The translations under genes were made by a program, and so were the position numbers. Of a DNA stretch of 64,000 nucleotides, positions 15,511 through 58,400 are shown piece by piece. The first letter of the stretch is position 1. Each line of letters starts with the position of its first letter. The stretch is from the NCBI RefSeq assembly GCF_965363235.1, contig NC_134841.1, forward strand, positions 30,967,440 to 31,031,439, in the 5' to 3' direction. Under the pieces are notes generated by a model. That model saw only the letters and a list, made by a program, of their open reading frames with translations, searched no databases and had not been told where the DNA came from. The DNA is from Mytilus galloprovincialis (Eukaryota; Mollusca; Bivalvia; Mytilida; Mytilidae).

Positions 15511-15686
15511 TTGTTTTCCCTATATACCTTAATATAACACAAGGTACTTTACTAATTTTTTTGAAAAATGACACCCAGTCCCGAATCCCCTTTGTTTTTC
15601 GATTTCTCGGTTGTCAAACCTACTTAAACTTATTATGCCGTAAATCTAAATTGATTTATCTACACAATGGTATAAATAACTCATCA

Positions 15687-16125: not shown

Positions 16126-16169
16126 AAAATGTTGTATATGTTTCAAATTGTTTTGTTCACACATCGTTG

Positions 16170-16385: not shown

Positions 16386-16399
16386 TGTCAGTTCCTGAG

Positions 16400-17229: not shown

Positions 17230-19023
17230 TCAGTTTTTAATAGAAATCTGACAGCATGTTGTCATCAAACGTTTATAAGAATTGAGACCAATCTTTTTGG
17301 TATCACAATTGGCAATTAGAAGCTCAATGTCTCTGAAATACAGTGCAGTGTTTTCGTTTACATAGAAGGTTACTTGCTCAAGGTTGCTGCACATAGACAA
17401 GACCTTTTGTAGGTCATCGATTGTGATAAAATAGTTTAATGAAAAGTGAAGCTGCTTTATATTGTGTCCATAGTTGGCTATTGCTTCTATGGTTCTGGAT
17501 GTGAAATTTGTTTCCTCTGTATCTTGAATACCTGAACATAAAAGTAACTGAAGGTTGGGACAGTTAGTTAAAAGTTGTACCAACGCATCGTCTGTATCAG
17601 AAGCAGCAGTCCATCCGGCTAATCGTAACTCATTTAAATCTGGACAAAACTGTGAAATTTCTATTAAAGATTTAGCAGTCAAATACTTGCAATATCGAAA
17701 ATGCAATACTTGTATATATGAGTTGGATTTTGTCAAACTCTTTCCACATTGTTCTGATCTTTCTGTGTCGTTATATTCTTGGCATATAGTGGAACTTAGT
17801 GAAATGTTAGCAACATCCATGCATGAATTAAATTTCGCTTGCTTCAGCCATTTACAGTTTAGAAGAAATCTGCTCACACCAGAACCGCTAACACCGTCAC
17901 ATTCACTGAAATTCACACATTGTAATAATGTACAATGTGTTGCTATGGCAACAAGAGCCACGTCTGTCACGTTCTTAATCTTTTCAAATTCTAGAACTTG
18001 TATATTCGAACATAACTGGCTTATATTAGAAAAAATATCACCATTAATATATGGGTGGTAGTTTCCTATTAATTGTCGCAAATCACTGCATCCCTCGGCA
18101 ACGCTTAGAAGACCTGAATTGGTCACTTGACAACACTGATCAAGACCCGATGAATACATATTGATTGTTATTTTTCGGAGCCGTATGCATTTCATACCAA
18201 TATAATACAGTCCCTTGTCTGTAACATTCCTACATTTAGAAATCGAAAGAGTTTCTAAGTAAGGCGAATTTTCCGCTACAAGTTTTAAGGCCTGATCATC
18301 AACAGGCGTTCGATCGAGAACAAGTGACCTAAGTTTAGAAAATTCTAATCTTGTGAACGCAGTACTAGTAAGTCCACTGCATCTGTTCAAATTTAACTCC
18401 ACTAAATTAGGATTTTTCTCAGATAAAGTTTGAATTGCTAAATCCAAATAAATATCTCCACAACTCAGTGTAACATGGGTTAGTAATTTTGTATTTTGAA
18501 ATAAAACTTGAAAAACATGAGGCATCAATTTGAGATTTGAAGAATGATTGCAAAAGAAATGGCGCAAATGAAACTTTCGAAGATTTGTGAGTCGCTTGAC
18601 AATTGAAATTATACTAGTTAATCTTTCAAACGTTGATACGTCAAGTTTAAATGTCTCCAGATCTTTAAAACAGTCGATAATATCTTCAAACTTTTCAATG
18701 TCATCATTATCATACATTCTGATATGCAAAGATTTCAAATCTGTAAAGAACCTCGGTCCAAACTTTGTATAAACGCACGGAACTCTGGTTTTAAGTGCTT
18801 TAACATGATGACCTATTTTTTGAAGCAAAGCATCCAATTTGTGTTTAGACGCCGATAGAAATATTGAAGAGTGGTACAAATTAAGTTGATGCCATAAACC
18901 TGGAGCAGACGACAGTTCGTTCCATCTGTGACAAACAAGTCTAATGGTGGCGACTAAGACAGGCTGAGGTAGGTATGTGAAAATTTCCAATATGATATCT
19001 GACGGCACGTCATTTATATTCAT
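17230..19023 (-). CDS. F-box and leucine-rich-repeat (FBXL-type) protein
   Basis: Codes for 597 residues from ATG 19023. F-box LRR proteins link SKP1-CUL1 ubiquitin ligases to substrates through the LRR domain; that role is inferred from family. The F-box is at the N terminus (VPSDIILEIFTYLPQPV, then RLVCHRWNEL and LWHQL). Most of the rest is AMN1/FBXL-like LRRs, clearest at LVELNLNRCSGLTSTAF, YLETLSISKCRNVTDKGL and LQCVNFSECDGVSGSGV. The frame is open 10 codons further up to 19053, but a good acceptor (TTAATTTCAG, ending at 19032) sits just before the F-box, so the first exon is probably upstream and ATG 19023 is the likely start; not certain. The reading frame is intact in one exon of about 1.8 kb. 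Which FBXL subtype it is cannot be settled by eye. An 83-bp decayed copy lies at 22564-22646. Confidence 0.9.
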   Translation of the reverse strand: MNINDVPSDIILEIFTYLPQPVLVATIRLVCHRWNELSSAPGLWHQLNLYHSSIFLSASKHKLDALLQKIGHHVKALKTRVPCVYTKFGPRFFTDLKSLHIRMYDNDDIEKFEDIIDCFKDLETFKLDVSTFERLTSIISIVKRLTNLRKFHLRHFFCNHSSNLKLMPHVFQVLFQNTKLLTHVTLSCGDIYLDLAIQTLSEKNPNLVELNLNRCSGLTSTAFTRLEFSKLRSLVLDRTPVDDQALKLVAENSPYLETLSISKCRNVTDKGLYYIGMKCIRLRKITINMYSSGLDQCCQVTNSGLLSVAEGCSDLRQLIGNYHPYINGDIFSNISQLCSNIQVLEFEKIKNVTDVALVAIATHCTLLQCVNFSECDGVSGSGVSRFLLNCKWLKQAKFNSCMDVANISLSSTICQEYNDTERSEQCGKSLTKSNSYIQVLHFRYCKYLTAKSLIEISQFCPDLNELRLAGWTAASDTDDALVQLLTNCPNLQLLLCSGIQDTEETNFTSRTIEAIANYGHNIKQLHFSLNYFITIDDLQKVLSMCSNLEQVTFYVNENTALYFRDIELLIANCDTKKIGLNSYKRLMTTCCQISIKN

Positions 19024-19059
19024 ATTGATATCTGAAATTAAGAAAATATGCATTATTGT

Positions 19060-31160: not shown

Positions 31161-33196
31161 CGGCGTCCGAATACTTTTAGTTTTCGCACTCTAACTTTAG
31201 TAAAAGTGAATAGAAATCTATGAAATTTTAACACAAGGTTTATGACCATAAAAGGAAGGTTGGTATTGATTTTGGGAGTTTTGGTCCCAACATTTTAGGA
31301 ATAAGGGGCCAAAAAGGGCCCAAATAAGCATTTTCTTGGTTTTCGCACCATAACTTTAGTTTAAGTTAATAGAAATCTATGAAATTTTGACGCAAGGTTT
31401 ATGACCACAAAAGAAAGATTGGGATTGATTTTGGGAGTTTTGGTTTCAATAGTTTAGGAATAAGGGGCCAATAAAGGGCCCAAATAAGCATTTTTCTTGG
31501 TTTTTGCACAATAACCTTAGGTTAAGTAAATGGAAATCTATGAAATTTAAACACAATGTTTATGACCACAAAAGGAATTTATTTTGGGAGTATTTATTTT
31601 GGGAGTTTAGGACCCAACAGATTAGGAATTAGGGGCCAAAAAGGGACCCAAATAAGCATTTTTCTTGGTTTTCGCACTATAATGTTAGTATAAGTAAATA
31701 CAAATCTATGAAATTTAAACACAAGGCTTATGACCATAAAAGGAAGGTTGGTATTGATTTTGGGAGTTTTGGTCCCAACAGTTTAGGAAAAAGGGGCCCA
31801 AAGGGTCCAAAATTAAACTTTGTTTGATTTCATCAAAATTGAATAATTGGGGTTCTTTGATATGCCGAATCTAACTGTATATGTAGATTCTCAACTTTTG
31901 GTCCCGTTTTCAAATTGGTCTACATTAAGGTCCAAAGGGTCCAAAATTAAACTTAGTTTGATTTTGACAAAAAATGAATCGGTTGGGTTCTTTGATATGT
32001 TGAATCTAAAAATGTACTTAGATTCTTGATTATTGAAGTTTTTTTGGTCCAGTTTTCAAATTGGTCTACATTAAGGTCCAAAGGGTCCAAAATTAAACTT
32101 TGTTTGATTTCATCAAAAATTGAATCCTTGGGGTTCTTTGATATGCCAAATCTAACTGTGTATGTAGATTCTTCATTTTTGGTCCTGTTTTCAAATTTCA
32201 AATTCTACATTAAAGTCCAAAGGGTCCAAAATTAAACTAAGTTTGATTTTAACAAAAATTGAATTCTTGGGCCTCTTTGATATGCTGAATCTAAACATGT
32301 ACTTAGATTTTTGATTATGGGCCCAGTTTTCAAGTTGGTCCAAATCAGGATCTAAAATTATTATATTAAGTATTGTGCAATAGCAAGTCTTTTCAATTGC
32401 ACAGTATTGTGCAATGGCAAGAAATATCTAATTGCACAATATTGTGAAATAGCAAATTTTTTTTTAATTAGAGTTATCTTTCTTTGTCCAGAATAGTAAG
32501 CAAGAAATATCCTATTTGTGCAATAGCAAGAATTTTTTTTAATTGGAGTTATCTTTCTTTGTCCAGAATCAACTTAAATCTTTGTTATATACAATATACA
32601 ATGTATATACACTTTTTACTACCAACTGATAAATTTAAATAATCTTTACCATTCAGTGATAACAAGCAGTTTTTTTACATCTTAATATTTTATGATGTAT
32701 TTAAATGAGTAGTTATTGTTGCAAACTCCATTAGAAATTTGAATTGATATCAGTTTTGAAAAAGGGAAACGGGGATGTGAAAAAAAAGGGGGGGGGGTTA
32801 AATTTTTCTCATTTCAGATTTCATAAATAAAAAGAAAATTTCTTCAAACATTTTTTTGAGAGGATTAATATTCAACAGCATAGTGATTTGCTCAAAGGCA
32901 AAAAAAACCTTTTAAGTTCATTAGACCACATTCATTCTGTGTCAGAAACCTATGCTGTGTCAACTATTTAATTTTAGATTTAAAAAGTTTGAAGAAGAAA
33001 TCTTTAATTGATTTGTAAAATCTTGGCATTTGTTTTGTGTAAAAAAAAACCATGTAATGTCAAAAATTTGATCACAATCCAAATTCAGAGCTGTATCATG
33101 CTTGAATGTTTTGTCCATACTTGCCCCAACTGTTCAGGGTTCGACCTCTGCGGTCGTATAAAGCTGCGCCCTGCGGAGCACCTGGTTTTTATATGA
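31072..33196 (+). mobile_element. 2.1 kb non-autonomous element, family B, copy 1
   Basis: Begins TTTATACGACCGCA and ends near the inverse TGCGGTCGTATAAA (33151-33164), followed by GCTGCGCC. A (CGT)n stretch lies at 31124-31158. Four copies of a roughly 190-bp internal unit (AAGGTTTATGACCA, TTGATTTTGGGAGTTTTGG, AAATAAGCATTTT) run to about 31810. Then come about four copies of a unit starting AAGGTCCAAAGGGTCCAAA, then GTGCAATAGCAAG repeats. No transposase. It lies upstream of or within a 5' intron of CCDC122. Confidence 0.8.
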
Positions 33197-40700: not shown

Positions 40701-43189
40701 TGGTACCTAACACTACAGGGAGATAACTCTGTAAAATCAACTGAACGTTTTAATTACCCTGTGTTGTAAAGGGAATAATAAGCTTCACAAAGATCAAAAT
40801 TGGTGTTTGTCAAACTGCTATATAACCAGTGTAATTTTTCTGACAAAACGGTTGGTTCAAAATTTTTGAAATTTTTATATTTTTGTTAAAGGGTCATAGT
40901 AAATACTTTGTATAAATTTTATCAAAATTAAACGAGCCAAATAAATTTTAGTGAAAGTGTTAGGTACCACCTTAAGCTGTCAATGTTTTAATGTGTATTG
41001 ATGTTGCACTTTATATTTCATATCAAGATTCAAACAGAGAAAGAAAAGCAAAGTCAAGCACAGGTTTCCTTAAATGTTCTTCATGTAAGTTTACTGTCAA
41101 AGCAAAGTGCGCTGCTAATATAGTTATAATTTATTTTGATTCATTTTGCATATAAATAAAAAGAGATGTGAGATCATTAAGACTGTAACTCAGCAACACA
41201 ATAAAACCAGAAAATACATAAAAAGGTCAAGAAAGGTTTTGTGCAAAACATAATTGTCAATGCTATATGTCAAGCCAAGTCCTAAGTCAAGACTATTTGC
41301 GAGTTTTGAAAACGACTACCAAAATTGTTTATACCCAATTCTTAATTATGACAAATAATACTTACATACCAACAAACTATCACAACAAGGTCCCTATCCT
41401 GGTATGGACATATTATAGGTGACAGGTTGAAATGTCAGAGTAGATACAGGAGGACTGTTACTCTTTATTTTTGTGGGTACCAATTTTCATTGATTAAGGA
41501 AAACTTGCATTTTTGTGGACATCTAATTTCTTTGCATTATCAAAGCATAAAATCCTATAGGAAATTTGTCATTCATTGAATATTTAATTTCTTGGTTCAC
41601 CTTTACCCATAAAATCCATGAAAATTGGTATCCTAAGAATATTAATGAATCCAGTAGTTCCCACTGGGGCCGAGTATTCCATGCTTCCACACTTATAAAA
41701 TGCTATGTTACATACATTTTTACATTAATACATTTTTACCAAGAAATCAATGTTCGAAATTTCTCAGTCAAAGTAAATCTTAGATAAATTTGGTTGGATA
41801 TACTTTTTGGGGTTTCTTTTAGTGATATAGTTCCTGAAATATTAAAGGGCGCTGTAAACAGATTTTATACCCCAGTCAAAATTTTGACGGGACGTATTAT
41901 GGTATACAAATGTCCGGTGTCCGTCCGTCCGTCTGTCCGTCCGTCCCTCTGTCTGTCCAGCGTAAACATGTCGCACCGTAACTTGAGAACGACTTATCTA
42001 AATTTCATGAAACTTAATATAGTTTTTTTTTATGATGGTCAAATGATCTGTATACTTTTTGGTGAAAATAAGATTTAAACTTTTTGAGTTACGGCACTTT
42101 GTAACTAAAACAGGGGTGTGGTTTTTTTTCACATGTCACACCGTATCTCAAAAACAATTCTTGATTATTGGTTAAAACTTTACACACTTCTTAGTTATAT
42201 TAATCTTAATATCTGTATACTTTTTGGTGATGATTCAAAATTTCATTTTTGAGTTATTGAGTATTTTGTAAAAAAGGGGGAGGTTTTTTTTCATGTCGTA
42301 CCGTATCTCAAAAACGATTTATGATTATTGCTTAAAACTTTACACACTTCTTTGTTATATTAATCTAAAGATCTGTATACTTTTTGGTGATGACTCAAAA
42401 TTTTATTTTTGAGTTTTTGAGTATTTTGTAAAAAAGGGGAGGTTTTTTTTTACATGTCGCGTCGTATCTCAAAAACAATTTATGATTATTGCTTGAAACT
42501 GTACACACTTCTTTGTTATATTAATCTATTTTGAGTTATTGAGTATTTTGTAAAAAAGGGGGAGGGTTTTTTACATGTCGCGCCGTATCTCAAAAAAGAT
42601 TTATGATTATTGCTTAGAACTTTACACACTTCTTTGTTATATTGATCTAAAGATCTGTATACTTTTTGGTGATGACTCAAAATTTTATTTTTGAGTTATT
42701 GAGTATTTTGTATAAAAGGGGAGGTTTTTTTTTACATGTCGCGCCGTATCTCAAAAACAATTTATGATTATTGCTTGAAACTGTACACACTTCTTTTTTA
42801 TATTAATCTAAAGATCTGTATACTTTTTGGTTTGATTCAAAATTTTATTTTAGTGATATTTGTAAAAAAAAAAACAGGGTGGGGGGGGGGGGTTTCACAT
42901 GTCCCGCCGTGTCTCAAAAGCGTATCATGCGCTCATGGCGCAGCTGTTTATTTTTTATAATTTAATATGAGTTATTTCTCAAATAAAAAATATTGATTTG
43001 TACAGATGTTCTGTTTCATTTGCTGTAAATCATTTTGTAATATTTTATTTGTAGAAAAAGAACCAAGCACAGTTGACAAGACTTAAGAAACAAGTTAAGG
43101 CTGCACAACAAAGTAGTCGGCAGTGGCATGATCAGATTTCCCTTCTTCAGAAAACTATAGCTGAGTTAAACAATAGACTGGGACAGTAG
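33515..43189 (+). CDS. CCDC122: CCDC122 orthologue (coiled-coil domain-containing protein 122), ten exons
   Basis: Exons: 33515-33663, 34293-34523, 34978-35138, 35247-35262, 36831-36938, 37565-37646, 39070-39197, 39927-40066, 41028-41084, 43055-43189 (stop TAG). Every junction is GT-AG and phases match throughout. The product is a charged coiled coil. The C-terminal SRQWHDQISLLQKTIAEL resembles human CCDC122 RRQWQWNIQQLEKTAAEL, and LPQAFNEVVEMQKGQSSEI resembles LADAVEKVAKQQQSQASEI (human sequence from memory). The fourth exon is only 16 nt and is required, since skipping it breaks the frame. The mussel N terminus is longer than the human one. The true start is unclear: an ATG is formed across the first junction (A|TG), or there are further exons upstream. 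Molecular function in this family is poorly known. AATAAA at 43221 and 43443 are candidate poly(A) signals. Confidence 0.85.
34687..34728. repeat. Poly-G tract, about 40 bp
   Basis: Nearly pure G run in a CCDC122 intron; G-quadruplex capable in principle. Length may be an assembly estimate. Confidence 0.9.
35690..36070 (-). repeat. SINE-like repeat, inverted, in a CCDC122 intron
   Basis: Starts with the GGTATGATTGCCAATAAGACAA block. On the reverse strand it contains the CTGTCCAAATACC..GTTGTTGTGGTTTGTTGGTG stretch that resembles 51515-51600. The short ORF here is repeat sequence. Confidence 0.6.
36948..37165. mobile_element. MITE family H, copy 1 (intron)
   Basis: Ends TACTGTGGATTCAT and ATGCATCTACAGTA are inverted, followed inward by GGGTACCA..TTTTC and GAAAATTGGTATCC. 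Same layout at 37795-38038 and 41452-41662. Inserted directly after the exon ending at 36938. Confidence 0.75.
37795..38038. mobile_element. MITE family H, copy 2 (intron)
   Basis: Inverted relative to copy 1: TTGGATACCAATTT at the left, CACGAAAATTGATACC at the right, with the shared middle CCATGAAAAAGCAA and TATAGGCTTTATA. Confidence 0.65.
38310..38601. mobile_element. Foldback MITE with about 75-bp terminal inverted repeats
   Basis: Left arm (38321-38393) and right arm (about 38516-38589) are about 93% complementary. The arm begins GCCC-GGTCTATTTTTG and includes GATCTGTGATACAGAGTGG. About 120 bp separates the arms. It lies in the intron before the exon at 39070. Confidence 0.85.
38860..38992 (+). 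repeat. SINE-like repeat, copy 2 (intron)
   Basis: GGACGCCTCCGGGTGCGGGA, then CTACATTGAAGACCTGTTGG, then the tail shared with 30800-30925. I recognise the head as a frequent mussel SINE-like sequence. Confidence 0.75.
40699..40971. mobile_element. TTAA-flanked MITE, 273 bp (intron)
   Basis: Perfect 16-bp inverted ends GGTGGTACCTAACACT, flanked by TTAA on both sides (40695-40698 and 40972-40975). No coding capacity. Perfect ends suggest a relatively recent insertion. Confidence 0.88.
41452..41662. mobile_element. MITE family H, copy 3 (intron)
   Basis: Contains TTTGTGGGTACCAATTTTCA, AGGAAAACTTGCATTTTTG and CATGAAAATTGGTATCCTA; same orientation as copy 1 and diverged at the extreme ends. Confidence 0.7.
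41868..42955 (+). repeat. Dispersed repeat family C, copy 2, with internal tandem units (intron)
   Basis: Head TTTTGACGGGACGTATTATGG followed by GTCCGTCC repeats. Then about six tandem copies of a 130-155-bp unit (ATGTCGCGCCGTATCTCAAA, GATTATTGCTT, TACACACTTCTTTGTTATA, GATCTGTATACTTTTTGG). Ends near CATGCGCTCATGGCGCAG. It fills much of the last CCDC122 intron. Confidence 0.8.
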
Positions 43190-44649: not shown

Positions 44650-46575
44650 TATACGACTGCAAAAATTAAAAATTTTGGTCGTATATTGGTATCACGTTGG
44701 CGTCGTCGTCTGCGTCGTCCGAATACTTTTAGTTTTTGCATTCTAACTTTAGTAAATGTGAATAGAAATCTATGAAACTTTAACACAAGGTTTATGACCA
44801 CAAAAGGTAGGTTGGGATTGATTTTGGGAGTTTTGGTCCCAACATTTTAGGAATTAGGGGCCAAAAAGGGCCAAAATAAGCATTTTCTTGGTTTTCTCAC
44901 TGTAACTTTAGTTTAAGTAAATAAAAATCTATGAAACTTTAACACAAGGTTTATGACCACAAAAGGTAGGTTGGGATTGATTTTGGGAGTTTTGGTCCCA
45001 ACATTTTAGGAATTAGGGGCCAAAAAGGGCCAAAATAAGCATTTTCTTGGTTTTCTCACTGTAACTTTAGTTTAAGTAAATAAAAATCTATGAAATTTTG
45101 ACACAAGGTTTATGACCACAAAAGGAAGGTTGCGATTGATTTTGGGAGTTTTGATTTCAATGGTTTAGGAATTAGGGGCCAAAAAGGGGCCCAAATAAGC
45201 ATTTTTCTTGGTTTTCACACCATAACTTAAGTTTAAGTAAATAGAAATCAATGAAATTAAAACACAAGGTTTATGACCACAAAAGGAAGGTTGGTATTGA
45301 TTTTGTGAGTTGAGGTCCCAACAGTTTAGGAATTAGGGGCCAAAAAAATAAGCATTTTTCTTGGTTTTCGCACCATAACTTTGGTATAAGTACATAGAAA
45401 TCTATGAAATTTAAACACAAGGTTAATGACCATAAAAGGAAGGTTGGGATTGATTTTGGGAGTTTTGGTTCCAACAGTTTAGGAATAAGGGGCCCAAAGG
45501 GTCCCAAATTAAACTTTGTTTGATTTCATCAAAAATTGAATAATTGGGGTTCTTTGATATGCCTAATCTAATTGTGTATGTAGATTCTTAATTTTTGGTC
45601 CCGTTTTCAAATTGGTCTACATTAAAGTCCAAAGGGTCCAAAATTAAACTTAGTTTGATTTTAACAAAAATTGAATTCTTGGGCTTCTTTGATATGCTGA
45701 ATCTAAACAAGTACTTAGATTTTTGATTATGGGCCCAGTTTTCAAGTTGGTCCAAATCAGAATGCAAAATTATTATATTAAGTATTGTGCAATAGCAAGA
45801 AATTTTCAATTGCTCAGTACTCATCAATAGCAAGAAATCTTCAATTGCACAGTATTGTGCAATAGCAAGAAGTTTTCAATTGCACAGTATTGTGCAATAG
45901 CAAGAAATCTTCAAATGCACAGTATTGTGCAATAGCAAGTATTTTCAATTGCACAGTATTGCGCAATAGCAAGAAATATCTAATTGCACAATATTGTGCA
46001 ATAGCAAGAAATTTCAATTGGAGTTATCTTTCTTTGTCCAGAATAGTAGTTGAATCAACTTAAATCATTGTTTTATACAATATACAATGCATATTCACTT
46101 TTACTACCAACTGATAAATTAAAACAATCTTTACCATTCAGTGATAACAAGCACTTTTTTTACATTTTAATATTTTATGATGTATTTAAACGAGTAGTTA
46201 TTGTTGCAAACTCCATTGGAAATTTGAATTGAGATTGGTTTTGGAATAAAGGAAAGGGGGATGTGAAAAAAAAATTGGGGGGGGGGGGGTAAATTTTTCT
46301 CATTTCAGATTTCATAAATAAAAAGAAAATTTCTTCAAACATTTTTTTGAGAGGATTAATATTCAACAGCATAGTGAATTGCTCAAAGGCAAAACAAAAA
46401 TTTTAAGTTCATTAGACCACATTCATTCTGTCAGAAACCTATGCTGTGTCAACTATTTAATCACAATCCAAATTTAGAGCTGAATCCAGCTTGAATGTTG
46501 TGTCCATACTTGCCCCAACTGTTCCGGGTTCAACCTCTGCGGTCGTATAAAGCTGCGCCTTACGGAGCATCTGGT
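44650..46575 (+). mobile_element. 1.9 kb non-autonomous element, family B, copy 2
   Basis: Same order of parts as 31072-33196: TTTATACGACTGCA head, short CGT run, about five 190-bp units, the GTCCAAAGGGTCC units, then at least six GTGCAATAGCAAGAA..TTCAATTGCACAGTATT units (45785-46010). The tail ends TGCGGTCGTATAAAGCTGCGCC. The number of units differs between the two copies. Confidence 0.8.
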
Positions 46576-46721
46576 TTGGATTGCGAATTACACCTATTTG
46601 CCTTTATATCACTTGGTTAAAGATTAATGATATTCATGTAGTAGGTATAAATAGAATCTTGCCATGAGTATACACCACCTTCATATGGTGAACTCTATAA
46701 AATATTGAAAACAACACGTTA

Positions 46722-46915
46722 TTAATTTCTTGCGTCCGAAGCGCTTTTCTGGATTTACCTTCATCAGGAACGCTCAAAGCCAAACATTTGAAATCCGAAG
46801 ATGTATAAGTACCGAAACCGTTGAAGAGCTGTATGTCAAAAAATACCTAAAATAATAGCCAAATTCATCTAAAGCCAACTTTGCCTGAGGGAGTTGAAAC
46901 CTTAGTTTCTTAATA
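46722..46915 (-). repeat. Family A repeat, third subtype, copy 2
   Basis: Reverse strand reads GAGCGTTCCTGATGAAGG, then CCAGAAAAGCGCTTCGGACG. The CTGATGA and GAAA words are in the same places as in the other subtypes but stem II is weak. Confidence 0.65.
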
Positions 46916-47039
46916 ATTTGTAAATTTATAAACGGACAATTTTAGTAAAGTTTGTTAAATCATGTCAGTACCGAAATACTGACTACCGAGCTGATGATAC
47001 CCTCGGGGACTGATAGTCCACCAGCAGTACTAATGATGT

Positions 47040-47389: not shown

Positions 47390-48209
47390 GTTCTATATAT
47401 AAGCTTTGGATTACAAATATTTTGGCCACGAGCATCACTGAAGAGACATGTATTGTCGAAATGCGCATCTGGTGCAAGAAAATTGATACCGTTAATTTTA
47501 TTACTATCACTGGGTCGATGCCTCTGCTGGTGGACTATTAGTCCCCGAGGGTATCACCAGCCCAGTAGCCAGTACTTCGGTACTGGCATGAAAATACGGA
47601 TTTTTTTTGTGTTATTAAAATTTGCTGTTACAAAATGATAGAAATTATTATAAATTAAGGAATGTATCTCCCTCATGCAAAGCTCTGATTCCTTTCACGG
47701 ATTTGGCTATACTTTTTGGACCTTTTGGATTATAGCTCTTCATCTTTTATATAAGCTTTGGATTACAAATATTTTGGCCACGAGCATCACTGAAGAGACA
47801 TGTATTGTCGAAATGCGCATCTGGTGCAAGAAAATTGATACCGTTAATTTTATTACTATCACTGGGTCGATGCCTCTGCTGGTGGACTATTAGTCCCCGA
47901 GGGTATCACCAGCCCAGTAGCCAGTACTTCGGTACTGGCATGAAAATACGGATTTTTTTTGTGTTATTAAAATTTGCTGTTACAAAATGATAGAAATTAT
48001 TATAAATTAAGGAATGTATCTCCCTCATGCAAAGCTCTGATTCCTTTCACGGATTTGGCTATACTTTTTGGACCTTTTGGATTATAGCTCTTCATCTTTT
48101 ATATAAGCTTTGGATTACAAATATTTTGGCCACGAGCATCACTGAAGAGACATGTATTGTCGAAATGCGCATCTGGTGCAAGAAAATTGATACCGTTAAT
48201 TTTACTACT
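47390..48209 (+). repeat. 352-bp tandem repeat, about 2.3 copies (family A subtype 2)
   Basis: Two full units and a third partial one (from about 48104) look identical by eye with a 352-bp period. Each unit carries CACTGAAGAGACATGTATTG followed by TCGAAATGCGCATC, the hammerhead-like core, and the module CGATGCCTCTGCTGGTGG. Near-zero divergence implies very recent duplication, or an assembly artefact. Confidence 0.9.
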
Positions 48210-48269
48210 AAAGAATTGTTCCTAAGTTTGACATAACATTTGTCCCCAGTGAAATAAAAGATCCTTAGA

Positions 48270-48755
48270 AATATTGTGAAGCTGTTAATTCATGTGTATA
48301 TTCTAAAACTTCAAAAGAAATTAATTCAATCAAAACTTTGGATTTTAAACCCTGTATACCAACATTTCTCCATGTGAAATTTCAAATGTGTCTAAAAGAA
48401 ATAATCCACAATGCTTTTCAATATAAAAATGGTGCATAAATGGCTATACATAAATTGCTTTGGCATCCTTTGTTCATAGTGAAAAAAGGTAACATATGCT
48501 ATACAGAATAAGTGATCAGTATGCTGGAGTTTCTTATTGACAACACATTTTTTGATCTTTGAGATAGACATTTTCAACATGCTGTTATGCATTCCTATGG
48601 GTACGAACTGTGCGTCTCTCCTTGATGTAAATTCTTATTTTTATATGAATATAAGTTCCTTGAGACACTTGTCAAAACGCAGAAGATTAAAGAAGTCTGG
48701 TAATTTAATTTCACATTCAGATATATTGGTGATGTGGATATTTATTTCCCCGAGG
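48270..48755 (+). mobile_element. Decayed PLE-type reverse transcriptase, downstream part
   Basis: Scattered frames give DFKPCIP-like text, FQYKNGA, ISMLEFLIDN, IPMGTNCASLL, then FRYIGDVDIYF where FxYIDDV is expected. These blocks follow in order the RT begun at 47.07 kb. The element is broken many times. Confidence 0.65.
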
Positions 48756-49070
48756 GTATCACCAGCCCAGTAGTCAGCACTTCTGTGTTGACTTTAGTAA
48801 TCATTGATATGTTCATAATTATAAATTTACTGTTAACAAAATTTTGAATTTTTGAAATACTAAGGCTTTTCTACCTCAGGAATAGATTACCTTAGCTGTA
48901 TTTGGCAAAACTTTAAGGAATCTTTGGTCCTCAATGCTCTTCAACTTCGTACTTTTTGGCCTTTTAACAATTTTTGATTGGAGCGTCACTGATGAGTCTT
49001 TTGTAGACGAAACGTGCGTCTGACGTAAATATAAAATTTCAATCCTGGTATCTATGATGAGTTTATTTCT
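48745..49070 (+). repeat. Dispersed repeat family A, subtype 1 (intact core)
   Basis: Starts CCCCGAGGGTATCACCAGCC, passes through TCAATGCTCTTCAACTTCG and ends with TTCAATCCTGGTATCTATGA. Holds the intact hammerhead-like core listed separately. Confidence 0.8.
48989..49027 (+). ncRNA. Hammerhead-ribozyme-like motif
   Basis: CTGATGA (48989-48995); stem II GTCT/AGAC (48996-48999, 49005-49008); GAAA (49009-49012); stem III ACGT/ACGT (49012-49015, 49023-49026) round a 7-nt loop; then A in the cleavage position (49027). These match the catalytic core of type I hammerheads. Stem I pairing of the flanks is not convincing, so activity is uncertain. Confidence 0.45.
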
Positions 49071-49516
49071 TTCCATTAACAATTAAAACAATTCTGATTG
49101 GGTTTCATTAATATAATCTCCAGAACTACATAGTTAAGCAACAAGAGACAGAGACAGGGCTTTCTAGGCCTAATATCTAAAATTTGAAATAAGCGGTCAT
49201 CTCAGTACCAAATCTATGACAAACGAGACGATTTTACCATGTTTAAGTTTGAAATTATCAATTTTCCTACCTTAGTAGCAAATACCAATATTACCTGCAT
49301 ATAGGTTATATACTTTTCAAACTCATTTTGTATCCAAAAGCTTGTTATAAAACGTCACCAGTGTCTGAGCAGAAAGTTTAGGAACGAGGGTTGTGTCAAA
49401 GAACGTCTAGTCCTTTTTCTATAAAAAAAAAAAATCATCGGAAGATACCAAGCCCTTATTGATATATATTCCGTCTCCACTTAAAAAAAGCATGATGGTC
49501 TTGAAATATAGATTCT

Positions 49517-49888
49517 TTGACGTTGTTTATCATCTTAATTCAGAGCTATAGTGTTCTTGTATTTGTCTTTGTTGTAAATTATAAACTTTTACTGTCTAGT
49601 TCTTTTTTGGTAATATTCTTTTTGGCGTTGCTAGGTACTTACACCTTCAACCTATGTGGTGTTGTGCTGAGACCATTTTTTGTATTCTTGTTTTTTATTT
49701 TTGTTTATGTGCTTTGTCTATATGCAGTCATTTTGTTTGTTGACATATTTGTTTGTTTTTACAGATATAAAGAATATAACACAATGTTGGCTGCTATATC
49801 ACTATTTTTGACATTTATTTTAGCTATTATGTCTGTTTGCTTTGTTCAAACATTATATTTATGTGAATTTCATTTGACAATCATATAA
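49517..49888 (+). CDS. Hydrophobic ORF, multi-pass membrane-like, unassigned
   Basis: 123 residues, mostly hydrophobic, with about four possible membrane spans: SVLVFVFVVNYKLLL, FLVIFFLALLGTYTFNLCG, FFVFLFFIFVYVLCLYAVILF (first 20 residues form one span) and LAAISLFLTFILAIMSVCF. The first Met is arbitrary because the frame may begin upstream. The stop is followed within about 10 bases by a family G repeat. It may be the last exon of a membrane protein, a retrocopy or a chance T-rich ORF. Confidence 0.3.
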   Translation: MTLFIILIQSYSVLVFVFVVNYKLLLSSSFLVIFFLALLGTYTFNLCGVVLRPFFVFLFFIFVYVLCLYAVILFVDIFVCFYRYKEYNTMLAAISLFLTFILAIMSVCFVQTLYLCEFHLTII

Positions 49889-50410
49889 GTGAGAGGTTTA
49901 GCTAGCTAAAAAACCAGGTTTAATACACCATTTATTAGGAAATGTTTTACCAAGTAAGAAATTAAATAAGCAGCAGTTTTCCATTTGTTTGATTTGTTTG
50001 AGCTTTTGATTTTCCCTTTTCGACTTTTGATAAGGGGCTTTACTATTTAAATTTACCTTGGTGTTCGATAATTTTTTTTATATGTAACTTTTTATATGTT
50101 TACATTTTGCAAACATAAAGAAGACTCATTTTGTTAAAAATTTATTTGCTAAATACACGTATATAGTTTTCTAGATTCGCCACCCTAGCCACAAACTGAT
50201 TAAAGCAAGACTTAGGCATGCTGTATCTGGCTTTGTCTCACCTGCTAATATTTTCTACATTTGAAAATGCCTGTACCAAATCAGGAATATGACAGTTGTT
50301 GTCCATTCGTTTGATGTGTTTTGTCATTTAATTTTGCCATTTGATTAGGGACTGTACGATTGAATTTTCATCGGAGTTCAGTATTTTTGTGATTTTACTT
50401 TTTTTTTTAA
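49885..50410 (+). repeat. Dispersed repeat family G, two tandem partial copies
   Basis: GTGAGAGGTTTAGCTAGCTA start, then CCATTTGTTTGATTTG. A second copy from about 50259 has CTGTACCAAATCAGGAATATG, CATTCGTTTGATGTGTTTTG and GGAGTTCAGTATTTTTGTG. Confidence 0.75.
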
Positions 50411-50414
50411 ATTT

Positions 50415-51040
50415 GTGATTATTTAAGTTCAAGGGTGACCCTTAATGATATGTCTATTATTTTTTGTATTTTCCCATAAAATCATTGCCAGATCCCATTT
50501 CCAATGAAATAATTTGGCCCCTTGCTTAGTAATTTATTGACTAGAAACTTTTGCACACATTAATGATCAAATAGAGAAGTCTTGTCCACTAAGGAGTCAA
50601 ATGCAGGTGATATTATTGGATTGAATACAACTGCAAATTACTTTTTATATAATTTTGTAAAATATAAGGAACACAAGAATGACTTGCACATTCCTATATG
50701 AATTTTGTGAAAAAAAACCTATATTTTTTACTGGAGGGAAACAATGGAAAAAAATTAACTGGTGTTCTGAGTATGTTTTAATTGATATTTGAATAAAAAT
50801 TTAAGGTCTGATAGGTATTGTACCTAAACCATGCTATTAAAAAAGAAATAATATTTTTTGGAGTTACTTGAACTCAATAGTAGGAATATACCTCATTGTA
50901 TTACTTTTTTGTTAAGACTATATATCTATAAGTATGGTGCAAAACATGTTGGCCACAATTTGAGGTGCCTTATGTTGAGGATACACAATTGCATAATCAA
51001 AAAGTATGGCTTGTAAGAAATACAAAATAATTTGTTATAT
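50415..51040. other. No gene seen
   Basis: AT-rich, short ORFs only. Confidence 0.4.
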
Positions 51041-51459
51041 ACAGTTATAAGAAGATGTGGTATGAGTGTAAATGAGTCAAATCTCTATCCAAGTCGCAAT
51101 AAGTAAAAAGTAAACCATTAAGGTCAAAGGATTTTTTTTTTTGTCAATCATACCACCTCCTCTTATTGTACTTGACTTTAAATTAACTTCCAGTAACTCT
51201 TAGATTGGTATTTGTGTCTTTTGTTCTAAATTTTGTTTTGTTTCGTGCAAATATAATGAATCAATCAATGTCCAATTAATTTTTACAGTTTGATATATTG
51301 CGTTGTGAGGTATAAGCCCTATCAAAGATATTTTGGATACAGTTATTATTGGCTTTGAAAACAGCTTGACAGTTTCTGCGATTAGTCTCAGTTTTGAACT
51401 TTGAACTTTGTGATTTAGTGGACTATGTATCGATCATATTGAGTCATTCAATTAATTTT

Positions 51460-51905
51460 ACAGTTTGTTTTTATTAAGGGCTATATCACCACTGTCCCAG
51501 GATATGGGAAGGTTGGCGTCTGCAAATATGTCTGTCCAAAGTTAAGAGTTAATAAATCATTGGTTGTCGTTTGTTGTTGTTAGTCATATATACTTATTTG
51601 TTTTCGTTTTGATTTTGAACATTAAATGGTCGATGATGTTCCTGTTTTAATTGTTTTAAACTTTATCATATTTGTGCCTTTTAATTATAGCTTGCTATTC
51701 GGTATGGAGTTTTCTGACGGCCAAACGATGACATTTTGATATCTTGTTGGTAGTTATTTTGTTGGCAATCATACCACCTTCTCTTATTTCATATATAACC
51801 CGCCACATTTTGTATGTGTCTGTCCAAATGTCAAGAGCCTGCCATCTTGGGATCTTCGTTGGTTGAAGAAAGTCTTTTTTTGTTTTCCGTTTATTGTTTG
51901 ACATA
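51460..51905 (+). repeat. SINE-like repeat, long form
   Basis: CACCACTGTCCCAGGATATGG, GGTTGTCGTTTGTTGTTG, TTGGCAATCATACCACCTTC and a second head AACCCGCCACATTTTG with TGTCTGTCCAAATGTCAAG. Shared with 52495-52720 and, inverted, 35690-36070. Confidence 0.7.
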
Positions 51906-52494
51906 AACTTGCTTCAATCTATGTCTCTTGGGATCAGCTGGATGGGTTTCTCATTGAAAAACATATCGCAATTCTTTTTTATACAGATGGATAATTGAAA
52001 AATATACTTTATGACAAATGCTGCTACTATAGGTTTCTATTAAATTGTAAGTTTCTCATTCCTAAGGTAAACACATCAATCAGCATATTTAAATGTATCT
52101 CAAACACGTCGCTATGAAACGTCAGATCAGATCCTCTTCGTGTGAATTTCACTGTAAGACGTGTGCTGATAATTCTTTTACTTGAATCAACACACTGGCA
52201 CTATTATACTAACTTTATAGTATAAAGTACCCTGCTACACATTACCCTGAATTCATTTTAATAAGATTTTATATTATCATTGTGGTTTCCGAAGGAATAT
52301 GATAGAACACACCATATTGGTATTAATCCAAATAAAAATGCTGTGGTTAAAATGGCGTATTCCCTTACCGTCCGATTTTACAGAATGATACTAGAGGTCA
52401 TCTTTCTATGCTATTTTCAAGTATCCGTCCACGTCCACTCTGTTTTTGTTAGATGGAATTCTATTTGTCGCCTTTTTCAACATATTTTTGATAG

Positions 52495-52720
52495 TTTGTT
52501 CTTATGTTGTACTGTTACACCACTGTCCCAAGTTAGGGGAGTGTTGACACCTTCAAACTAGTTTAACCCCGCCACATTCTTTATGTGTCTTTCCTTAGTC
52601 GATGGGCTTTGCTCATTATTGAAGGCCGAACGATGACCTATAGTTGTTATTGTCTGTGTCATTTAGTCTGTTGTAGAGAGTTGTCACATTGGCAATCATA
52701 CCACATCTTATTTTTATAAG
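52495..52720 (+). repeat. SINE-like repeat, second copy
   Basis: CACCACTGTCCCAAGTTAGG, TTTAACCCCGCCACATTC, GAAGGCCGAACGATGACC, then GTCACATTGGCAATCATACC and CACATCTTATTTTTATAA. The best-preserved copy of this family in the window. Confidence 0.75.
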
Positions 52721-52810
52721 ATATAAATCTCCGTTAGCTTAAAATATTAATGTACTCGTATTACAAAATGAGCCTACGTAACCAACAATTTGTCATTTCC
52801 ATTTGTACAG

Positions 52811-52933
52811 GCTATGCAGGGTTTAGGCAGCAGTAGTTTACCGATGTTCAACATTAATAAATCAAAGAAGAAGAAACAGATACAGGTAAAAAACAAAAAC
52901 GGAGGTAAGAGATCAGTTGAGTCGAAAGGATGA
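52811..52933 (+). CDS. Candidate terminal exon, Lys-rich C terminus
   Basis: A good acceptor (TTCCATTTGTACAG) is followed by an open 40-codon stretch, AMQGLGSSSLPMFNINKSKK, then a Lys-rich end and a TGA at 52931. A donor-like CAGGTAAAA at 52884 could end the exon earlier. No other exon of such a gene was found nearby, so this may be chance or the tail of a gene with long introns. Confidence 0.3.
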   Translation, partial: AMQGLGSSSLPMFNINKSKKKKQIQVKNKNGGKRSVESKG

Positions 52934-53431
52934 ACGTAATGGTCTAAGGTCAGACATGCTGTCATCCTCTTTGAATAAGATAATTATGTGACTGTAGATC
53001 ATACTATTTTGTTCAGTGTGAGAAGATTAAGAGTGCATTTAAAGAAAATGTAACGTTAATTATTTTGCTCTTCATTCGTGCTAATAAACTGGGGAAGTAA
53101 TCTCCTGCAGATTATCAGAGTCTTTGAATAATGAATAATGAACTGCGATTTATGTTAAAATTGTGACATCCATTAACTGCGGGGAATTTTTGCCATTACA
53201 AGAGGTCTACCACGTTCTTTAAACATCGGTATCTTTGGACATTCAGTTTTCTTTGTGAAAAAAATAGTTGAAACTGTGACGGTTAGAACTACACTTGCCT
53301 TCCAAAGCTTAGGGTGATTCATGGGGATTGTGTATATTCAAAAACATGAGATGTTAACAAAAATAATTTACTAAAAAAGACAGAAATGTTTTTAAATTGT
53401 ATTACATGAACATTCTACATCTAAAATGATT

Positions 53432-53905
53432 TTTATGCCCCACTTACGGTAGTAGAGGGGCATTATGTTTTCTGGTCTGTGCGTCCGTTCGTTCGTCCTT
53501 CCGTCGGTCTGTCCTTCCATTCGTTCGTCCCGCTTCAGGTTAAAGTTTTTGGTCAAGGTAGTTTTTGATGAAGTTGAAGTCCAATCAACTTGAAACTCAG
53601 TGCACATTTGCCCTATGATATGATCTTTCTTATTTTATTGCCAAATTAGTGTTTTGACCCCAATTTCACGGTTCACAGAACATAGAAAATGATAGTGCAA
53701 ATTTCAGGTTAATGTTTTTGGTCAAGGTAGTTTTTAATGAAGTTGAAGTCCAATCAACTCGAAACTTAGTATACATGTTCCCTGTGATATGATCTTTCTA
53801 ATTTAAATGTCAAATTAGAGTTATTACCCCAATTTTACGGTCCACTAAACACAGAAAATGATAGTGCGAGTGGGGCATCCGTGTACTATAGACAAATTCT
53901 TGTTT
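53432..53905 (+). repeat. Dispersed repeat family D, fuller copy
   Basis: Starts ATGCCCCAC and ends GTGGGGCAT (9-bp inverted ends). Contains GTCCGTTCGTTCGTCC and two copies of a roughly 180-bp unit with GAAGTTGAAGTCCAATCAAC and GATATGATCTTTCT. Confidence 0.8.
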
Positions 53906-54499
53906 ATAGACTAAGTGTGACTATGTTCCTCTTCGTTTCTAGGCGCAGTAAATATTTATTCACCTGCAGGGTTTATTTTCTAAAGAGCATGTGCAATTAT
54001 TAAAGAGTATTTGTATGGTACTCCACACAATTCAACAAGACTGAGTGTCATTTACAGTATCAAATTATAAGCCTGGTACCTTTGATAACCATTTACAGTA
54101 CCTAAACCAAACATATAACTATCATTTAATTTCATTACATGCTACTTTGGTTTAACATGACTATATATATATAAACTTCGAGAACAAAAAATCAAAACAT
54201 GCACAAAAATATCCGATTCAGTGTACTGTATGTACTTGTAGAATATGAAGTTACTGATGCAAGACATGTAATCAGTGTGAGTTTCTATTAAATATTGCAC
54301 AAACTTAAGTAGTGTGATTATTCTCCTCGTGCCTTGTTGCAGGATTGTTAGTTACATCAATGTTAGAGTTATCCTATTTACAGGTACCTGCAAAAGATTG
54401 CAAAGTAAAATTAATTTTAGATCAATGTAATAGAAATAATTAAATGCTTTTAAACTATTGAAACGATTAATTGTGAAAGACAGAATGATAAAAAGTAAA

Positions 54500-54680
54500 A
54501 TTACAACAATACTGAACTCCGAGGAAAATGCAAAAGGGAAAGTCCCTAAGTAAACGCACAATCAAAAGCTCAACCACATCAAACGAATGGATAACAACTG
54601 TCATATTCCTGACTTCGTACAGGCATTTTCTTAAGTAGAAAATAGTGGATTAAACCTGGTTTTATTCTTTCTATGGTTAT
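54500..54680 (-). repeat. Dispersed repeat family G, inverted copy
   Basis: Reverse complement of the family: AATACTGAACTCCGAGG, ACATCAAACGAATGGATAAC, GTCATATTCCTGACTTCGTAC, GTGGATTAAACCTGG. Confidence 0.75.
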
Positions 54681-55430
54681 TAATACAAGTCATAAAGCTT
54701 AACAGTTTAATATAAACGATTAGAGTGTGCTGAGCTGTACAGCAATTGATATTGTTTTATAATCAATATGTCATACGTGTAAAAATACAAATCAAAAATT
54801 TCTTTTAAAGATTATCAACTTTGACCCAAAAAAATCAATAGCATAACCCAGTTTTATGCGACACAATATTATCGTTATAGATATCATTTATCATTTGATA
54901 AATAAGCGAATCACGAAAAACATACAATGATCGTATTGTACTTCTTTATATATATATATATATATATATAAACAAATAAAGTGAAATGACATTAACAATA
55001 TGTATCTTTGGTTCTTAAAAAAGAACTAAATGAGATAAAGGTCTGTTAAATTTCCATTCGTTGAAAATGTATATACTTAAGAACGTCGAACACAACCAAT
55101 CATATTACACTGATCACTTAAGAATCAGGTACCAAAAATACGTAAATCTGTATAACGATATAAAAGTTGGAATTGTATAAATCTGAGTAGTTATAAATCA
55201 GCAATGGCAATGCCTAAACGTCAGAAATTAATCAAATTGTCAGAAATTGGAACACAAATCCAGCGGTATATCATCTATTCCGAGTGTTTGAGAAAAATTG
55301 TAAATGGGAACAAATTACATATGATTAATGAATGCTATCAATATCCAGAAGTACCCAAATAAGATACAGTAGTTAAGAAAAATTCGCACTGCCTATCATT
55401 ATTGGCACTAAAATCAATCCGGAAATTTCA

Positions 55431-58400
55431 TTAGTCACTATCGTAAAAATATTGTTTAAAATATTTTTGTCTAGCTAAATGTTGTTGGCAGGGGTAAATT
55501 CCCCATTTTGTATAATGGTCATCTTTTTCTTCATATTGCCGATGCATAATCTCACATCTCATGCATTTACAATTATCTCGCCACTTTTTCCTTCGACTGC
55601 GACGTCCAATACGGTCATTTTCTAATCTGCACCGTGTCTGTCGAGAATTGTGACCCGAAAGTGTTTCATTTTCTAAAATTGTTCCAATCGTATTTTTTGA
55701 AAATCGTTGAGTAACATCTCCAGAAGTAGGGAATTCCCCAGTAATGTCAAATTGATAAATACCAGATTGTTCTAATGGCTGACCTTCTTTGTCCTCATTT
55801 TCTGTTTTGTCTGGTTTTCGATTTATGAGTGTTTTCTTTTGCGTTATTCTTTCATATCTGTGCTTTGACGAATTATTGCTTGGTTTGTTAACTTCATTAT
55901 CAACATCAGCCACATTTGGTAATGACTTGGACAATGTACCATTCAGTAATGACTTGGACAGTGTACCATTCGTTAATTTAGTGTCGGATAAAATACTTTC
56001 TGTTTCCTACAATAATATACTATGCGTTAGATCTTGTATTATTTTGTTGACTGAAGATTTATTTTCTATAGATATCATGTTTCATTATACAACAGTTATA
56101 TATTATAACTTAAGTAAATTAATTTTTGAAGTTTTTAAAGGCAAATTTCCATTTTGATCCTAACCTATATTAAAAGTATAGTAACTATATGTCGTATCCA
56201 AACTTTCTATCAATTTCATAAATATCAGTACTTGTTAGACACATCTTATGTAATCAATCTACATTTTGGAGGTTCCCAATTCCTGCTATTTACCTGTCAA
56301 ATTTATGCAGCATTAGTTTAAATATGTTCAAAACTCATAAATCGACAAGAAGACACATAAAAGTAACATTATATGGTCATTTTTATAAATTTTCTGTTTA
56401 CAAAACTTTGAATTTTTCAAAAAACTAAGGATAATCTTACCCCAGGAGTAGATTACCTTAGCCGTATTTGGCACTACTTTTTGGAATTTTGGGTCCTCAA
56501 TGCTCTTCAACTTTGTATTTATTTGGCTTTTTTAAACTATTTTGATCTGAGCGTCACTGATGAGTCTTATGTAGACGAAACGCGCGTCTGGCGTATAAAA
56601 TTATAATACTGGTACTTTTGATAACTAATGAAACAATTGAAAGAATCACAAAAATTAAACAAAATAATTCGACTGAAAACAGCTGAATAGTACAGTATTG
56701 ACTACAAGCAAAATGTTTAGGAGTATTGAATTTACCGCAAGGATAATATTATCTGAAAAAATACTTTATGAACCTTTTAGAAAAATGGACATATATTATG
56801 TTCAGATATTTAAGATGAAAATATTCGTCTTAGACTTAAATTTGTTTAGAAAGAGGCACGCAAATCTGTGAAATATAAATGACTTACAAAAGGCTGAAAA
56901 TTGGCGAAACATGTTCAGCCCCGAAGATGAACATGTTGTTCCTCCAAATTATCAGGAAATTTTAGAAATTTGCAGTCCTCAATGCTCTTCAACTTCGTAC
57001 TTTATTTGACCTTTTTAACATTTTTTATTCGAGCGTCACTGATGAGTCGTTTGTAGATGTAACTCGCGTCTGGTGCAAATATAAAATTTCAATCCTGGTA
57101 TCTATGTTGAATTTATAGGTAGATATATATAAGAAGAAAACAAAGATGCTTAGCATAAAATATATTGCCAAAAACCAGATATATGGGAATCAGAAACAGT
57201 AAACATGCTGGATTATAAAGCAGATTAGGATAGTCAGTAAAAGATAGCGAAACTATTTTGTCTCTTGCTGAAGGAGATTTGAGAGGAACTATACTAAATA
57301 GAAAACTTGAAAAAGCAAATCATTATAAAGATATGAATACATGGAAACAACTTGTTAAAGGGTCCCATTTATCTAATTCGTATCTACTAGTAATTTATTT
57401 TTTAGATGTGTGAGGAACATCGTCACTTTTAGTTGCACAAGCTCGTTAAAAATGATAATTATGATTGAAGGTATAAAATGTCTCAGTATAACGATATTTA
57501 TTGAACTTTAGTATTAAATATGTAAAATTGGTCATTGAATTATGTTAATTTTCTTCTAGAAAAGTTATTATGTTGATCGTTAGTGACACGTCGATATAAA
57601 ATCATTTGAATATAGAATAACATTAATTTGGTAACTTCACTATATTGATAGTCTTCAAATGGAAGCGCTTGTTGATTTATGTTATACTGGTACATATTAC
57701 GGTACTCTGAAAGGACATAAGTGGTGTTTCTTATTCGCGGAATTATCATACCCCGACCTTGTATAAAGCCTATACCAAGTGCTACCTATTAATATTGACC
57801 AATTGCACATTATGCCTGTGTTTATTTCTAAAAAAAAAAAGAATAATGATAAGTGCAAAAGAAACTGATTTTGTACAATAATTAAACTTTTTGTAGACTC
57901 ATCACCACTGAAATATTTCCTTACTAAAAACAGAAACCTCTATATATACTGTTTCCAGCAAACAACAGCAAAACAATATATATTAAATGAATAAAGTCAA
58001 TATAAAATACAAGAAGAGTAAAACGTATACCGATTTTCCAACTGGACTATACCGCCATCTCGTATAATGAATCAGCACCTTTATAAAATCAACACTTTAT
58101 GTAAAATTATGATGAAAATAACATAATGTCGACACAATCGTAAATAAGGGCACTTATTCAATGTAATAACAATTGTAATCATATTAAACGATTAAAACTC
58201 GTATTTCGAATAATCAAAATACAAACACATAACAAACAAAGTGGAGTTCTTCTTATAATAAATAAGCTGAATATACCAGCTTATTTTATACGATTGAAGG
58301 ATTAGCGGTTATAAAAATAACTAGATTATGATTTAATCTACTCGCAAATAATGCCATTTCCATACAGACCATTTAATATTATTGACTTCATCCTAGTTAT

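Follow-up and report, generated by a model that had tools for sequence, protein, structure and literature searches.

The 64,000-nt stretch of Mytilus galloprovincialis contig NC_134841.1 analysed here (positions 30,967,440 to 31,031,439 of the forward strand; hereafter, the window) contains dispersed and tandem copies of a repeat that, as judged from its letters, carries a genuine type I hammerhead ribozyme, predicted to cut itself. We give a probability of about 0.8 to the reading that this repeat is a small retrozyme without long terminal repeats (non-LTR), approximately 350–356 bp in length and present in three families (S1, S2 and S3), whose copying begins at a fixed internal position of an RNA circle made by the ribozyme, most likely through the protein of a Penelope-like element (PLE). 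The window was examined together with the genome to which it belongs (1.385 Gb in 331 contigs). An earlier sequence-only reading of the window was right to place a hammerhead in a repeat that is both dispersed and tandem.

A strict descriptor (CTGANGA, a stem II with 4/4 pairs, GAA, a stem III with 3/3 pairs including A15.1-U16.1, H17, and a stem I with at least 5/6 pairs) finds five intact type I hammerheads in the window, all on the plus strand, and has no match in 200 dinucleotide shuffles of the window searched on both strands. Three of them lie in one S2 array and two in separate S1 copies, as listed below; positions with a plus or minus sign are counted from the scissile bond, and the anchor is the place downstream of that bond at which copies end.

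47396–48210, plus strand: S2 retrozyme array, 2.31 units of 352 bp, with its 3' end at the family anchor (+37).
47432–47475, plus strand: type I hammerhead, subtype 2, predicted cleavage between 47469 and 47470 (AUC).
47508–47591, plus strand: conserved hairpin pair of the first array unit, one hairpin formed by CACTGGG...CCCAGT and the other capped by UUCG, directly 3' of the anchor at which copies end.
47784–47827, plus strand: type I hammerhead, subtype 2, predicted cleavage between 47821 and 47822.
48136–48179, plus strand: type I hammerhead, subtype 2, the third array copy, absent from the earlier list; predicted cleavage between 48173 and 48174.
48747–49068, plus strand: S1 copy, 5'-truncated, nested in a degenerate reverse-transcriptase-like fragment, 3' end at the anchor.
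48983–49026, plus strand: type I hammerhead, subtype 1 (30.6 bits, E 2.4e-4), predicted cleavage between 49020 and 49021 (GUC).
56368–56628, plus strand: S1 copy, 5'-truncated, 3' end at the anchor.
56551–56594, plus strand: type I hammerhead, subtype 1 (33.0 bits, E 4e-5), predicted cleavage between 56588 and 56589 (GUC).

Much of what had been described from the letters is present as stated: CTGATGA or CTGAAGA, a 4-bp stem II and GAAA at one spot; a stem II of GTCT/AGAC at 48996–49008 and 56564–56576 and of GACA/TGTC from 47445 and 47797, to which the unlisted third array copy (48149) can be added; and the 352-bp array itself. The change from CTGATGA to CTGAAGA falls at position 7, where any base is tolerated. 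Stem III, which had been read as ACGT/ACGT, was placed in the wrong register. The correct pairing is ACG-TG-CGT at 49012–49019, ACG-CG-CGT at 56580–56587, and ATG-CG-CAT in subtype 2, such that stem III has three pairs in both S1 and S2. In this register, the base directly after stem III is C17, and the next six bases pair with the six that precede CTGANGA, so that each of the five intact copies has a complete stem I, with 6/6 standard pairs if G-U is counted (GCGTCA with TGACGT or TGGCGT, and GCATCA with TGGTGC in subtype 2). The cleavage triplet is GUC in subtype 1 and a normal AUC in subtype 2. The earlier doubts, that stem I is not convincing and that subtype 2 lacks a UH cleavage site, thus arose because stem III had been shifted. 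The order of strands is stem I, core, stem II, GAA and stem III, open at stem I, and the type I model is matched over its full length. The copies that had been noted on the reverse strand near 15.7 and 16.0 kb do exist, but both are damaged, one with GAAT for GAAA (15757) and the other breaking off within stem III (15993).

The compensatory change proposed earlier was examined in a larger set of copies. Hammerhead segments were gathered by plain similarity, with pairing playing no part, from 98 loci and the window, yielding 160 instances (71 S1, 43 S2 and 46 S3); the 98 loci comprise 8 Rfam matches and, for each family, 30 zero-mismatch matches taken first in genome order, and the sample therefore lies mostly on a single contig (C1) and favours young copies. 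Across 53 distinct S1 and S2 segments (at most 10 mismatches, gap-free alignment), standard pairs occupy 92.3% of cells, compared to 85.6% after shuffling, and at most 49.6% when the partner is slid by 1–3 columns. Cells with a double change number 42 against 11.2 ± 2.7 in shuffled sets, with none of 500 shuffles as high, and double changes are seen in all three stems. The number of pairs showing a double change is less striking than the cell count (6/13 versus 4.3 shuffled; 25/500). Four of these six pairs, namely pair 3 of stem I, pairs 2 and 4 of stem II and pair 2 of stem III, represent the split between S1 and S2 and change in the same 10 sequences, and thus a few independent events are counted many times. 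S3 adds further changes, with C-G at the innermost pair of stem I, G-C pairs in stem II and A-U in stem III. Compensatory change is hence supported over 53 distinct copies, mostly from one family split.

The Rfam covariance model recovers some of the intact hammerheads. At the gathering cut-off, it reports no match in the window, whereas in E-value mode RF00163 matches the two intact subtype 1 copies, each from the first to the last position of the model and with a score just under the Hammerhead_1 cut-off of 34 bits, and leaves the three subtype 2 copies in the window unreported. At E ≤ 1, there is no match in four more loci (two S2 and two S3), although S3 is a family that occurs in tandem arrays. 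Genome-wide, the hammerhead family gives 70 matches, 29 of them over the cut-off, from a scan in which only 74 of 224,653 candidates were scored; none of 14 control genomes has a match over the cut-off. These results bear on the possibility that a short interspersed nuclear element or satellite holds a dead hammerhead or a chance resemblance to one, which we consider very improbable. The low window scores, the absence of S2 and S3 from the Rfam matches, a minimum-energy fold that is not the hammerhead, and the lack of most loop-loop contact bases (PMC7229834) would all fit a look-alike, but such a motif would not be expected to show an empty shuffle control, double changes in every stem and 29 genome matches over a cut-off that no control genome reaches, or to belong to a mussel repeat that self-cleaves in vitro (PMC7229834).

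Near matches to the three related cores total 48,682 in the genome, at up to 3 mismatches: 40,042 for S1 (35-mer), 6,534 for S2 (39-mer) and 2,106 for S3 (44-mer), counts that are not strictly comparable because the patterns differ in length and the units of one array are counted separately. Reversed-pattern controls for S1, S2 and S3 give no genome match. Our reference units are single natural monomers opened at the scissile bond, of 356 bp for S1 (L039), 352 bp for S2 (the window array) and 350 bp for S3 (L072), with a GC content of 38.5% in S1 and 37.5% in S2. The repeat therefore has the features by which metazoan non-LTR retrozymes are defined, namely a unit of 150–450 bp, tandem occurrence, GC below 50% and a type I hammerhead. 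No LTR, primer-binding site (PBS) or polypurine tract (PPT) was noticed in the three natural monomers, although no dedicated PBS or PPT search was made, and the units are too short to hold coding sequence for a reverse transcriptase with GIY-YIG domain; the reverse transcriptase fragments that we found lie outside them. Copies among those listed range from single partial ones to approximately ten units, and the listed S3 copies likewise occur in tandem, mostly at 350–351 bp. Beyond the mussel genome, no viral contig matches the S1 core exactly, and among bacterial and archaeal genomes, three contigs carry one degenerate 19-mer, where approximately 3.7 are expected by chance.

Evidence on the mode of copying comes from the position of copy ends. 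We mapped these in 69 loci, which remain from the 98 after removal of 26 flagged duplicates and of three loci (L046, L055 and L084) in which the mapped element lies fewer than 60 bases from the locus edge; L055 and L084 are also not mapped to the anchor. L027 and L030, near-copies of one insertion, were both kept, and at L069 the element mapped is a second one rather than the sampled core. In 66/69 loci, the 3' end falls +30 to +48 nt past the scissile bond, just before a pair of conserved hairpins. By family, the range is +40 to +46 in S1 (29/31), +32 to +40 in S2 (17/18) and +36 to +40 in S3 (19/20), and the exceptions to the overall range are L051 (+26), L035 (+280) and L085 (+52). Among copies longer than one unit, 38/40 end at the anchor (binomial p = 5e-46 against 19/352 positions). 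Sampling by hammerhead does not force the 3' end into 19 of approximately 350 positions, because the adjoining hairpin block is well conserved and would align. The S2 tail (−1 to +34) occurs at 4,283 places in the genome and the stretch running from tail into hairpin at 2,466, which agrees with many copies ending at the anchor but is not proof of it, as mismatch tolerance confounds the two counts.

At the other end, no such preference is seen. The 5' ends of the 40 copies longer than one unit show no departure from uniformity (Kolmogorov–Smirnov p = 0.37), and those within 10 nt of the scissile bond (3/40 versus 2.4 expected) do not pile up. Copy lengths span 0.25–3.74 units, with 29 of the 69 loci below one unit, 25 between one and two, 6 between two and three, and 9 at three or more. 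An exponential fits these lengths (Kolmogorov–Smirnov p = 0.86), but we make no use of the shape because copies with more hammerheads are sampled more often. A copy that runs unbroken from approximately +40 through the scissile bond cannot derive from a cleaved linear monomer, whose ends are that bond; the template was therefore either closed again or never cut, and copies of more than one unit call for a circle or a multimer.

If doubles are allowed, units are evenly spaced in 14/15 listed arrays with at least two spacings (for example, eight of 350 bp or twice that, seven of 351 bp or twice that, and five of 356 bp). In 13/15 arrays, units are on average more identical to one another than to those of other arrays (the exceptions being L030 and L059, with L062 left out for low identity). 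Units are 100% identical in the window array (two full units) and in the S3 array at L087 (three units). Constant spacing, unit identity and the higher identity within arrays favour one circle per array, without proving it. The last of these would also be expected from homogenisation if tandem copies arose mainly via unequal crossing-over of single insertions, as in ordinary satellites. We regard this origin as quite unlikely: copies of 0.25–0.95 units (29/69) contain no repeat that could misalign, yet almost all of them end at the same 3' position, and the fractional turns of longer copies spread without a break.

The block just 3' of the anchor comprises 84 nt that form two hairpins in all three families, a long one followed by one capped with C(UUCG)G. 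In 55 full-length natural copies (10/65 having been dropped as truncated or shifted), 95.0% of cells are paired versus 91.7% after shuffling, and double-change cells number 74 versus 30.4 ± 3.7, with 0/500 shuffles as high. Counted by pairs instead of cells, double changes do not exceed the chance expectation (5 versus 5.3). The UUCG hairpin is the clearest, with T-A/C-G, G-C/A-T and T-A/C-G exchanges; in the inner part of the long hairpin, two rival folds are not separated by the data. By eye, the hairpin also contains a string resembling the B box of RNA polymerase III promoters, GGGTCGATNCC.

The analysis establishes the hammerhead, its covariation, the anatomy of the sampled copies and the numbers of copies in the genome, whereas RNA cleavage and circle formation here, the use of the circle as template and the nature of the enzyme are inferred. 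The retrozyme transcript would fold the type I hammerhead and cut after GUC or AUC, and the resulting unit-length RNA would be closed into a circle by a cellular ligase. A reverse transcriptase would then start at one place 30–48 nt downstream of the scissile bond, beside the hairpin pair, pass the rejoined cleavage site, round the circle and fall off anywhere. Copies made in this way should share their 3' end, differ in their 5' ends and comprise from 0.25 to at least 3.7 turns. A PLE protein is the likeliest enzyme; in keeping with this, GIY-YIG matches are frequent in the genome (at least 147, with frames of up to 911 aa among those listed), although this domain is not confined to PLEs and 12/14 control genomes also match. 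A more specific version, to which we give slightly less than even odds, is that a PLE reverse transcriptase binds the hairpin pair on the ribozyme-made circle, begins at a set position next to it and makes a random number of laps; each insertion would keep its lap count, and the tens of thousands of copies would be a fossil record of rolling-circle reverse transcription.

Several points weigh against copying from a circle by a PLE protein. Our sample was chosen on perfect cores and is thus biased to young, multi-unit copies; in looser BLAST fragments from outside the mapped elements and from the window, the anchor is the end of 15/31 non-edge cases. Two of these 15 are the sampled cores of L069 and L084. 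The remaining 16 include the opening piece of the window array as well as many fragments that break within the hammerhead or after the hairpins. There is no general target-site duplication, with a duplication score of at least 7 in 8/69 loci versus approximately 4 expected, a looser test giving 7 versus 2.3 ± 1.5, and a mean longest match of 5.38 versus 5.13 ± 0.12; in metazoan non-LTR retrozymes, such duplications exceed 4 bp where they occur. When approximately 130 nt surrounding the ribozyme are folded without constraint, the minimum-energy structure differs from the hammerhead in all three families; according to prediction, the ribozyme is not free in some of the mussel circles (PMC7229834). 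In S3, an A-A apposition at the first stem II pair in 19/20 distinct copies may leave the hammerhead slow or dead. Finally, multi-unit copies are also possible from linear, uncleaved multimers, and insertion by an Anolis PLE in vitro did not need hammerhead cleavage (PMC11167929).

This last point leads to a rival of the circle itself, in which an uncleaved multimeric array transcript is reverse-transcribed from the same internal start, with the circle arising as a by-product. In vitro, the Anolis PLE used mainly unprocessed RNA as substrate (PMC11167929), and arrays of up to approximately ten listed units exist that could be transcribed through. The identical units of some arrays (two full ones in the window, three at L087), the constant unit length of nearly all listed arrays, as expected from one circle, and the lack of a common 5' end marking a transcript start all speak for the circle, but none is decisive, because a young source array would also have identical units. 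On balance, we consider the linear template unlikely, though well worth keeping in mind.

Long interspersed nuclear elements (LINEs) usually leave copies that are constant at the 3' end and truncated at the 5' end, and so a LINE-type reverse transcriptase, rather than a PLE, could be the mobilising enzyme. In the same direction points the following tail-only copy, whose edges carry an exact 11-bp direct repeat that occurs nowhere else on the plus strand of the window:

54060–54089, plus strand: tail-only S1 copy, 30 bp, between two copies of CATTTACAGTA (54049–54059 and 54090–54100).

A zf-RVT fragment in the flank of one copy (L045) points the same way. We nevertheless find a LINE-type enzyme the less probable of the two, for copies end at an internal position of the circular unit, next to hairpins, which resembles the internal initiation so far reported for a PLE (PMC11167929), and the 3' ends inspected show no poly(A) tail by eye.

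On the minus strand of the window, 11278–12698 is a Penelope-like remnant with an RVT_1 match (PF00078, E 8.6e-8), followed by a stretch that resembles GIY-YIG by eye and has no Pfam match at 0.01. The GIY-YIG matches in the genome are often inverted pairs a few kb apart, as at G000:C13:29482393-29489131. The degenerate fragment into which the S1 copy at 48747–49068 is inserted belongs to a reverse-transcriptase-like family with the motif KIYDKRDDF, whose pieces at 48516–48746 and 49209–49234 are interrupted by the copy. The string TTTATTTC stands at both edges of this copy and is either a possible 8-bp duplication or microhomology with the tail. A template-switch chimera at 48747 was considered and dropped, as the family resumes on the far side, at 49209. 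The motif has 16,122 genome matches at up to 2 mismatches, compared to 8 for its reversed control, and Pfam gives no match for two fragments of the family from other loci. Its association with the retrozyme was rejected as evidence of a partnership: the family lies near several copies, but the 6 seen in the 283 kb examined, two of them in mutually duplicated loci, are not clearly enriched over the approximately 3.3 expected.

The window holds further copies of the repeat, as follows.

1817–1992, minus strand: S2 copy, 5'-truncated, with an enlarged loop II.
15658–15863, minus strand: S1 copy with core GAAT.
15960–16129, minus strand: S1 copy broken off within the hammerhead.
16379–16634, minus strand: old S3 copy.
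46699–47027, minus strand: S3 copy, with a hammerhead-like core that spans 46773 to 46732.
56957–57116, plus strand: older S1 copy, its hammerhead at 57033–57076 broken (GTAA for GAAA).

Other features of the window include two arrays of a similar 159–168-bp unit (31180–31811 with 32369–32462, and 44744–45509 with 45781–46020), each followed by an array of approximately 135–146 bp and another of 35 bp, which looks like a single composite repeat present in two places; tandem repeats at 42106–42851 that overlap and have periods of approximately 121, 160 and 282 bp; and a 609-aa open frame on the minus strand (17233–19059) that by eye resembles F-box and leucine-rich-repeat proteins. No tRNA-like gene was found in the window.

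These copies speak to the questions of how retrozymes of animals are inserted and from which element they take their enzyme, and a fixed start beside conserved hairpins offers a lead to the partner. Together with the laps, it makes the mechanism of insertion testable: the RNA is defined, the first nucleotide is predicted, and circular and linear templates should give contrasting results. In addition, the census of copies provides a large natural set of hammerhead variants, one of them with an unusual A-A at the bottom of stem II.

The element belongs to a kind already known in mussels. In M. galloprovincialis, approximately 5000 type I hammerheads have been described in two families of similar sequence, usually in repeats of approximately 350–390 bp that are tandem and low in GC; a cloned repeat self-cleaves with a kobs of approximately 0.1 per min, and circular RNA of the repeats is abundant, most so in gonad and mantle (Cervera and de la Pena 2020, PMC7229834). 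The guess of the sequence-only reading, a small retrozyme making circular RNA, matches these elements. The type I hammerhead, the repeat length of approximately 350 bp, the tandem copies and the low GC are shared, and S1 and S2 are probably identical with the published families, whereas the numbers differ, with approximately 5000 copies in two families there and 48,682 near matches in three families here. Circles as templates for multi-unit tandem cDNA, with PLEs as strong candidate machinery, were already hypothesised in the same paper; the parts of it covered here mention no fixed 3' end, 5' truncation, hairpins or third family. A 2020 review, apparently by the same group, states that metazoan retrozymes have no conserved motif that helps to deduce their autonomous partner (PMC7761336, in the sections consulted), and a start site of the present kind appears in none of the titles and abstract openings of papers found on retrozymes with Penelope since 2021 or with target-primed reverse transcription. 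When compared to the LTR retrozymes of plants, which are likewise non-autonomous retroelements with hammerheads and circular RNA, the mussel repeat differs in having a type I hammerhead, whereas the plant elements carry type III hammerheads inside LTRs together with a PBS, a PPT and 4-bp duplications (Cervera et al. 2016, PMC4918200, as described in PMC7229834 and PMC7761336).

The closest parallel in the order of parts is the Anolis PLE PAc, in which reverse transcription starts internally in a stem-loop 111–118 nt into the open reading frame, with the hammerhead cut at 26; the reaction needs template that extends past the start, and the start sites are also where copies in the genome end (Frangieh et al. 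2024, PMC11167929). Both elements have a hammerhead, then some tens of nucleotides, then an internal start at a stem-loop where copies end, and both occur in tandem. This is a resemblance rather than proof of a shared mechanism. Differences are also clear: PLEs encode a reverse transcriptase with GIY-YIG, for which the mussel unit of approximately 350 bp is too short, and PLE hammerheads are minimal and lack helix III (PMC7761336), whereas that of the mussel has a 3-bp stem III. To the retrozymes already known from mussels, the present analysis adds the fixed 3' end of the copies, read as a start site, their lap structure and a census of three families.

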